Source: Deltaproteobacteria bacterium
GTDB lineage: Bacteria > Desulfobacterota > Desulfuromonadia > Geobacterales > DSM-12255
Length of the DNA: 33,005 bases
Assembly: GCA_021849045.1 (NCBI GenBank)
Contig: JAJZTK010000031.1
Coordinates: 1-33,005 of the forward strand
Reading direction: 5' to 3'
The translations under genes were made by a program, and so were the position numbers. The notes beneath the pieces were generated by a model, which was not told the DNA's origin, did no database searches, and saw only the letters and a list, made by a program, of their open reading frames with translations. Below are positions 10,810-13,092 of the stretch, in pieces. The stretch's first letter is position 1, and every line of letters begins with the position of its first letter.

Positions 10810-10980
10810 TTACCCGACAAACAACATTCTCAGCCCCACGGCCACGAGAATCGCCCCAAATATCCGCGTCAAGACTTCCGTGGGGAGACGTAACGCCAAA
10901 TCGGCACTAAGAATGCTGCCGACCAGGAAGCCAAAACAAACCAGACCCCTGCCGGTAATATCGTCGTTCCGCATTGACAT
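10810..10980 (-). pseudogene. TauE/SafE-family permease remnant (C-terminal fragment)
   Basis: A 56-residue frame ending in TAA reads GLVCFGFLVGSILSADLALR, then LPTEVLTRIFGAILVAVGLR and MLFVG. This is the typical C-terminus of TauE/SafE sulfite-exporter-like proteins, where LP(T/E)...LKRIFG and a last helix end the protein. The two ATGs at its start lack a ribosome-binding site, and the upstream transmembrane helices are missing, so it is a truncated remnant. Confidence 0.6.
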
Positions 10981-11066
10981 AATAGAGCATCATGAACTAT
11001 ATATATTCAATAAACTGAATATTGCAAGACCATGGCGATTTCCGAATAAACATGGGACCCAACGGA

Positions 11067-11094: not shown

Positions 11095-11112
11095 GTGATT
11101 GGGGGTGATGAT

Positions 11113-11286
11113 TTGACAGATCTAATGATATTGATTGCATTTTTGGTTGCCTGGGTAGTGGTGCAGAAATTCATCCTGCCACGACTCGGGATACCCACCT
11201 GAATGTCCAACACCTGCGACCTCGGGGACCGGGGTAAAAAAAACAGCGCAGATAAAACAGATAGCAGCGGACAATCTCCGGAATAA
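11113..11286 (+). CDS. Candidate small membrane selenoprotein (in-frame TGA)
   Basis: From a TTG at 11113, with GGGGGTGA about six bases upstream, the frame encodes one transmembrane helix (TDLMILIAFLVAWVVVQ) and KFILPRLGIPT. It then meets TGA at 11200-11202 and continues without a break as MSNTCDLGDRGKKN to a TAA at 11284. Read as selenocysteine, the product has 57 aa with U30 and C35 (U-x4-C) just outside the membrane and a hydrophilic tail. A 7-bp hairpin with a GGA loop (11219-11235) begins its loop 23 nt after the TGA, which fits bacterial SECIS spacing. Geobacter relatives make selenocysteine. Otherwise these are two coupled micro-ORFs of 29 and 27 aa (the ATG directly follows the TGA). 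It precedes a multiheme cytochrome, so a redox role is likely. Confidence 0.5.
11219..11235 (+). promoter_or_regulatory. SECIS-like hairpin
   Basis: ACCTCGG pairs with CCGGGGT (seven pairs, one G-U) around a GGA loop. The loop starts 23 nt after the in-frame TGA, and its first base is G, both features of bacterial SECIS elements. Confidence 0.45.
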
Positions 11287-11346: not shown

Positions 11347-13092
11347 ATGGTACGACTGGTGCTTATCTGCATCCTTTTCGCTGGAACCGCAGTCACTGTC
11401 AATGCTTCGGACAGCTGCACCGAGTGCCATGGCAGCCGGTAAAAAATGAAGTCCCTGGGATACGGTCCGTTCACCGTAACCCGCCAGGAAACGGAAGCGC
11501 AGACGCATATGCCGGCCGGATGCAGCGAATGCCATCTGGGCAATCCGGGTGTAAAGGACAAGGATACAGCCCATAAAGGGTTGGCCCGTCTGCTTGTCGT
11601 GAAGAAGAAAGGGTTTGCGGTGGCGACGTCGGCCCGGCGCTACCCGCTCGAATACGGTACAAACCCGATGAACCGTCTCTATACCGTTGTTGACAAGAAT
11701 GGCAAACCGGTCGGTGAGCCCTCGGTGGCAGCCATTTCCTGGCACGACAAAAAGGTCGATACCCTCAGCCAGGATTTCGAGGTCATGGGGAAAACCTGCG
11801 GGACATGTCATGCCAAGGAGTTTGACGAGTTTTCCAAAAGCACCATGGCGACCAATGGCAAGCAGAGCCAATACCGGGGATGGGTTACAAAAGACCGCGG
11901 CCCCCACAACTGCGGCCCATGGTTCGAGGGGAACTTCGAGACGATGCGGGCAAACACCATGGTCCCCATGTCGCCGGAGAGCCACCGCATCAACCAGAAG
12001 GCCTGCAACACCTGCCATGTAGGCTGCCTGGACTGTCATTTCAACCCACAGAAGAGACATCCCGCCGATCCCTCCATTGGCCCCCACACGTTTGTAAAAA
12101 CGCCCCCTTCCGAAAGCTGCTACGGCAACGGACGCGCCTCTATCTGCCATGCAGGGCCGGAGGACCGGCGCCGCGGGGCCGGCTATTTCGGCGGGTCGTT
12201 CTCCTATCCCGAAGGAAACGAACCCGATGTCCACCTGAAGGCCAAGGTAGGCTGCCTCGACTGCCACGAAAGCACCAGAAGCAACCCTGCCATCGGTCAC
12301 GGTATGATCAGACGCCAGGCACAGGAGTCGTGCCAGCGCTGTCATCCCGAGGCGGTTAAAAGCCATGCAACCTCACTGCACAGGAATCTCTCCTGCGAAG
12401 CGTGCCACATCCAGAAGGTAGCCGGCTATCAGGGGACATACTGGGGGCCGGGCAAGCTGGCAGGGGCGGCAACACCTTATTTCAAGTTCAAGGCCTATTA
12501 CGGCTACATGCCGGAGCCGATTCTGATCAAAGACCAGAAAGGACGCTGGATACCGGTCAAGCCGTTCCCCATGGCGGTCATGAACCAGAAAATGTCCCCG
12601 TTCAAACCCGGCCTGTACTGGCGCTACCCGCTCGATCTTCCGGATCTGAAGAGAACGGACGATGCCTGGGGCTATGTGGGTCTTTCCGGAGGACTGCCGG
12701 AAAACAACAAGGCCCTGCTCTGGATACAGATGGACAAGATGTCGCACAAACTGGGGAAAAGCCGCTCGTGCGACTCGTGCCACGCCGCTGCTGACGGCGC
12801 ACAGGTACGAAAGGTCACCTGGGAATACAGCGACCCTGGCGCGCTGCCGTTCAGCGGCAGTCACGAGATTCTCGCCAACCGTTCCGGACTGTTCGTCAAA
12901 GGGATGCAGTCGGACAAGATAGAACTGGAGCCGGGGTATACCCTGTCGGCACTTGCCCCGTGGGTCTATCTGAAGGATGCTTGGCAGATTCCGGGGGATT
13001 TCTCGCTGCCGGCCATCCAGGACCGGAAACGGTACGAAACGTTCACCAGCAGTCTCGACGTCAGCCGAAGGTCCGGGGTGGTGCATCGGTAA
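11347..13092 (+). pseudogene. Multiheme c-type cytochrome gene interrupted by an in-frame TAA
   Basis: An ATG at 11347 (GGAG upstream) starts a signal peptide (VRLVLICILFAGTAVTVNAS) and the first heme motif CTECH. At codon 32 (11440-11442) the frame meets TAA, and after one codon it continues from an ATG at 11446 for 548 aa. A G-to-T change of GAA would explain the stop (GSR-E-KMKSLGYG). The continued part carries eight CXXCH motifs (CSECH, CGTCH, CNTCH, CLDCH twice, CQRCH, CEACH, CDSCH), giving nine in all, plus an odd C-x8-CH (CYGNGRASICH). The downstream ATG has no ribosome-binding site, and a protein made from it would lack the export signal needed for heme attachment. So the gene is inactive, needs read-through, or the base is a sequence error. 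DUF302, kinase and activator genes follow in the same direction. The exact cytochrome family is not recognised. Confidence 0.8.

Follow-up and report, generated by a model that had tools for sequence, protein, structure and literature searches.

Evidence for a widespread and apparently undescribed family of small membrane selenoproteins in bacteria

Results and discussion

A short reading frame divided by a single in-frame UGA codon

The window (the whole stretch of DNA analysed, 33,005 nucleotides) comes from a deltaproteobacterial genome of 4.33 Mb in 271 contigs. On its plus strand, a frame at positions 11113-11286 begins with a TTG start codon, ends with a TAA stop codon and was translated as LTDLMILIAFLVAWVVVQKFILPRLGIPT-[TGA]-MSNTCDLGDRGKKNSADKTDSSGQSPE-TAA, with the TGA at 11200-11202 as its sole internal stop. 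An earlier note on this DNA, made from the sequence alone, had described a frame split by a lone TGA and preceded by a good ribosome-binding site, and both points were borne out, the latter by a Shine-Dalgarno-like sequence, GGGGGTGAT, read on the plus strand at 11101-11109, just 5' of the TTG. The position homologous to the TTG is ATG or GTG in relatives, and a purine-rich Shine-Dalgarno-like stretch lies upstream of the start in nearly all homologs. With the UGA read as selenocysteine (Sec), the gene would encode a product of 57 residues with Sec at residue 30 (U30) and a cysteine, encoded at 11215-11217, at residue 35.

The AlphaFold2 model of the product (mean pLDDT 63.8, rising to about 85 across residues 1-20) has one helix, at residues 2-24 (11116-11184), followed by a disordered tail. 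Hydropathy likewise indicated a single transmembrane helix there, in keeping with the one helix that had been read before the TGA, and the best 17-residue window averaged a hydropathy of 2.25 across 121 family members. A 57-residue protein that crosses the membrane once, with Sec just past the helix, is thus a well-supported prediction. In the same 121 members the mean net charge was +1.6 between the helix and Sec versus -0.24 on the N-terminal side of the helix, and the Sec side was the more positive one in 93% of members by charge count. The positive-inside rule is well established for membrane protein topology and, given this charge bias, Sec probably lies at the cytoplasmic membrane surface, with the short N terminus outside.

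The UGA codon and the tail beyond it are conserved

A search of 196 close relatives returned homologs in 171 of them at a cut-off of E <= 1, at which the tail of the list includes weak matches, and nearly all of the matches listed contained exactly one internal TGA. A profile search of a phylum-wide sample, at E <= 0.01, placed the family in 168 of 395 genomes (~43%) and in 112 of 246 genera, with TGA throughout among the matches listed. Direct reading of well over 100 member sequences showed UGA as the Sec codon in every one, never TAA or TAG. Where family matches were reported to have no stop, the alignment had stopped short of the UGA, save in one case, and that exception (L218) was a weak stray match (E = 0.06). 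The homologs therefore kept both the codon and the tail, rather than losing the latter or ending regularly at GIPT, two of the outcomes that the earlier note had named as fatal to its proposal.

That note had allowed for either TGA or TGC/TGT at this codon. The first expectation stood and the second did not, as neither Cys nor any other sense codon was seen at the Sec position in the 196 and 395 genomes, a sampling of close relatives and of the phylum. The queries carried C in the Sec column, so that any Cys form would have scored no worse. Taxa beyond the phylum were sampled by one scan limited to close relatives and by a scan of viral contigs; the latter gave two relatives of the family, both with UGA, on putatively viral contigs. 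A scan of a plasmid collection gave zero matches. On these sequences, the family appears to be Sec-only.

In an alignment of 64 members the invariant columns were W14, L22, P23, G26, T29, U30 and C35, upholding the U-x4-C pair that had been proposed at the outset. Among 121 distinct members the spacing was U-x4-C in 115 and U-x5-C in 6; a few divergent members, read by eye, had a longer U-to-C spacing, giving an overall range of x4 to x8. The Cys codon after the UGA was TGC in 71 and TGT in 38 of 114 distinct members. The gene of Geobacter argillaceus, from the same genus, is 88% identical to that of the window, and between the two the codons after the UGA show five synonymous changes and three amino-acid replacements. 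Two divergent loci of one family (L209 and L211) read PSUGAPVD...PTUDG, with a second in-frame UGA, and may carry two Sec residues.

A SECIS-type hairpin follows the UGA codon

The window contains the hairpin ACCUCGG-GGA-CCGGGGU at 11219-11235, a 7-bp stem whose GGA loop begins 23 nt after the UGA, exactly as had been noted before. Taken singly, this hairpin is weak evidence, because its fold stability is ordinary for its base composition (z = 0.13, an uninformative value). Across the family, however, hairpins of 6-8 bp recur with the loop usually 23 nt past the UGA. Stems of at least 6 bp were found in 83% of 114 distinct members, compared with a mean of 8% and a maximum of 17.5% in shuffled sequences, and when the 5' and 3' halves were swapped between the 114 members the share of such stems fell from 75% to 18% (maximum 29%). 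In a fixed register, between 51 and 99 of the 114 members were paired at each position, by many pair types. In a subset of 32 members, picked for a common register and so favouring that register, 96.9% of cells were paired versus at most 53.6% when the partner strand was slid; in this register-chosen subset, compensatory two-sided changes occurred at all seven stem pairs and the loop began with G in 32/32. About one fifth of members have a predicted hairpin that is short, weak or shifted.

The published model of bacterial SECIS elements places the loop 16-37 nt from the UGA, with a G within the first two loop positions, and the family hairpin fits it in both loop distance and loop G (PMC13188914). 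The compensatory changes, and pairing far above chance in the shuffle, recombination and slide comparisons, give good support to the view that the hairpin at 11219-11235 is a SECIS element maintained by covariation, and answer the earlier call for a conserved hairpin.

The genome encodes the machinery for Sec insertion

The genes that the note had proposed looking for were all present in the genome of the window: SelA (5e-152), SelB (383 bits), tRNA-Sec (74.7 bits) and SelD, the last itself containing a UGA. The match to a second selD-like gene in this genome (G000:C3:3489-4422) came in two neighbouring segments, the first of them containing a UGA, which suggests a frameshift or a split gene.

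Within the phylum, the family occurred in 161 of 356 SelA-positive genomes versus 7 of 39 SelA-negative ones (Fisher p = 0.001). As a main test this co-occurrence is weak, since 356 of the 395 genomes already have SelA, and part of the SelA-negative set was identified by elimination. All seven family-positive, SelA-negative genomes had a clear tRNA-Sec (69.7-86.5 bits), and for this reason they are taken to decode Sec, the SelA gene probably being missing from the assembly. In genomes with neither SelA nor the family, tRNA-Sec scored at most 50.8 bits in six of the seven tested.

Comparison with known selenoprotein families

No NCBIfam 20.0 model, those for TsoA, OS_HP3 and SaoC included, reached its family cut-off score against 64 members, the best match being to an unrelated ATP synthase subunit (E = 0.019). 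Pfam gave weak unrelated matches and nothing above the gathering cut-off, the FeoB-associated Cys-rich membrane protein included, and Rfam gave no family membership. Among the 119 prokaryotic selenoprotein families catalogued in 2026, there is no small single-transmembrane family with a TU(M/L)SxxC motif (PMC13188914, Table 1). The candidate had been put forward as a new selenoprotein, and with these comparisons the family does appear new, allowing for an unlisted mention in subscription papers, supplementary tables or NCBI protein records; its kind, a bacterial selenoprotein, is already known.

With the catalogued families it shares an in-frame UGA, a SECIS-type hairpin 16-37 nt away whose loop opens with G, the Sec machinery in the genome and a Sec near a redox-type Cys. 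Unlike them, it showed no Cys form in the genomes sampled, and its motif and form are unlisted (PMC13188914). Nearly all selenoproteins have Cys homologs, and established searches use Cys/Sec pairs or alignment to Cys homologs (PMC13188914); such searches would miss a family that lacks a Cys form, as this one appears to. The gene was probably also overlooked because its in-frame stop codon gives it the look of a short gene fragment. The dual CXXC motif small protein OS_HP3 (NF041197) is likewise a small predicted selenoprotein (PMC13188914), but the dual CXXC motif is absent from the window family, which the OS_HP3 model did not match. In the selenoprotein TsoA (NF045695), too, a short Sec motif closes with Cys; that motif is LULAxC, in contrast to TU(M/L)SxxC, and the NCBIfam model of TsoA did not match either.

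Eukaryotic SELENOK and SELENOS are small single-pass membrane selenoproteins that carry Sec on a polar cytosolic tail. The resemblance is one of architecture only, and a relation in sequence is not expected.

Alternative readings of the UGA codon

The alternative offered in the earlier note was a pair of coupled micro-ORFs, in which the UGA is an ordinary stop that ends a 29-residue membrane peptide and a translationally coupled micro-ORF begins at an ATG behind it. An ATG does stand directly after the TGA in the window, as it does in 80 of the 114 distinct members. The other 34, however, have no ATG, GTG or TTG there (the codon being CTG, CTC, ATC, GCT, GCC, ACC or similar), and on this ground the reading fails and was rejected. 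The stop is moreover always TGA in the members read and the U-to-C spacing is nearly fixed, and the conserved loop position and base pairing, both anchored on the UGA, are left without an explanation. We regard two separate peptides as extremely improbable.

A different possibility is that a Sec-decoding ORF with its SECIS element acts as a selenium-sensing leader, serving mainly to control a downstream gene, for instance that of the cytochrome, through coupling or termination, with a peptide that itself has no function. The gene is indeed very small, and some genomes have a same-strand gene shortly after it. Yet most lineages have a different gene downstream, frequently one in the opposite orientation; the FmdB partner gene sometimes precedes the selenoprotein gene; and the protein conserves both the motif next to the transmembrane helix and the residues around Sec. 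A leader is therefore very unlikely. By contrast, the conservation across the UGA and the covarying hairpin let us assign 11113-11286, with high confidence for a reading made from sequence, to a widespread and apparently undescribed family of bacterial selenoproteins; this confidence concerns its identity as a selenoprotein and leaves function aside.

Genes adjoining the selenoprotein gene

The next gene in the window encodes a multiheme cytochrome, an arrangement that is common to G. argillaceus. The earlier note had placed the selenoprotein before such a cytochrome, and this holds for the window and G. argillaceus but is not general to the family. A functional link to the cytochrome was rejected, the neighbour not being conserved across the family, and its presence is incidental.

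The most frequent partner elsewhere was an FmdB-type zinc-ribbon protein (TIGR02605), encoded within about 420 bp at 25 loci, directly upstream or downstream of the selenoprotein gene and never on the opposite strand. The FmdB motif gave only five further matches across the rest of the 1.3 Mb scanned. Three of the FmdB-adjacent loci (L038, L042 and L043) are on metagenome-assembled contigs whose records name KSB1 or unclassified bacteria, and the genome of the window encodes four FmdB-type proteins elsewhere. The FmdB-type protein is a neighbour of the family in about 25 loci and not a homolog, the window protein having no zinc ribbon. Rare Sec forms of FmdB-family proteins exist (PMC2398784); a literature search on FmdB function gave nothing useful. 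The FmdB-type neighbours end in a Ser-rich tail, ...SCGxGGF(S/T) (loci L153-L178, L038, L042, L043, L191, L194, L196 and L198).

At two loci (L159 and L170) the gene order was ArsR, selenoprotein, FmdB, thioredoxin-like. A YgaP-like transmembrane protein and an MBL-fold protein adjoin the selenoprotein gene in some loci, an RND-type efflux system does so in some, and CcdA-like, TlpA-like, rhodanese and C_GCAxxG-type genes adjoin it in others. Of these names, FmdB, ArsR, YgaP-like and MBL were tested against libraries, and CcdA, TlpA, thioredoxin, rhodanese, RND and C_GCAxxG are readings of the sequence, not library matches. The ArsR/SmtB-type neighbour had weak similarity to TsoR/BigR, a point of resemblance to TsoA. 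No single neighbour is conserved family-wide. As a group, the neighbours point to, rather than settle, a role in thiol, sulfur or metalloid redox work.

A proposed function

The computational evidence gives good support to the reading that the genome's own SelA, SelB, SelD and tRNA-Sec decode the UGA at 11200-11202 as Sec, the SECIS element being the hairpin at 11219-11235. This Sec, accompanied by the Cys at residue 35 on a flexible polar tail, would then sit at the cytoplasmic membrane surface, and the two residues might, with lower confidence, form a reversible selenenylsulfide or a pair that binds soft metals. The product could in this way serve as a membrane-anchored adaptor for redox or for handling chalcogens or metalloids, alongside cytoplasmic thiol partners, of which the FmdB-type zinc-ribbon protein would be the likeliest and thioredoxin, CcdA or TlpA would be candidates in some loci. 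Membrane-anchored selenol/thiol redox or soft-metalloid handling, as a class of function read from the neighbours, is put forward tentatively.

It could also be that, in the same selenoprotein, the Sec/Cys tail is a ligand for the delivery of metal or selenium, as in a metallochaperone, and not an electron carrier. ArsR/SmtB-type regulators, RND-type efflux and the zinc-ribbon protein adjoin the gene in several lineages, and the variable U-to-C spacing of divergent members is as compatible with a flexible ligand as with a redox pair. However, the thioredoxin-, CcdA- and TlpA-like neighbours suit thiol redox at least equally, and a second Cys is usually missing from the tail; a delivery ligand is a possibility to be kept in mind, at less than even probability. 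The composite proposal, of an obligate-Sec family that is among the most widespread in the phylum and was missed by searches needing a Cys homolog or a longer frame, and whose tail forms a new membrane-anchored selenium redox module with an FmdB-type zinc ribbon, falls somewhat short of an even chance.

The analysis adds a family found in roughly 45% of the SelA-bearing genomes of the phylum, the metal-reducing Geobacter group included, and suggests that searches based on Cys/Sec pairs have a blind spot for Sec-only microproteins. It also offers a small, testable membrane selenoprotein together with a specific partner gene.

Other features of the window

On the minus strand, a short frame at 10810-11010, with a TGA read through, lies between an aldo/keto reductase gene and the selenoprotein gene, and resembles what is left of a gene for a membrane protein. 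The cytochrome frame (11347-13092, plus strand) contains an in-frame TAA at 11440-11442, just past the first CxxCH. G. argillaceus has CAA at this position, a single-base difference, and the TAA would be either a nonsense change or an assembly error.
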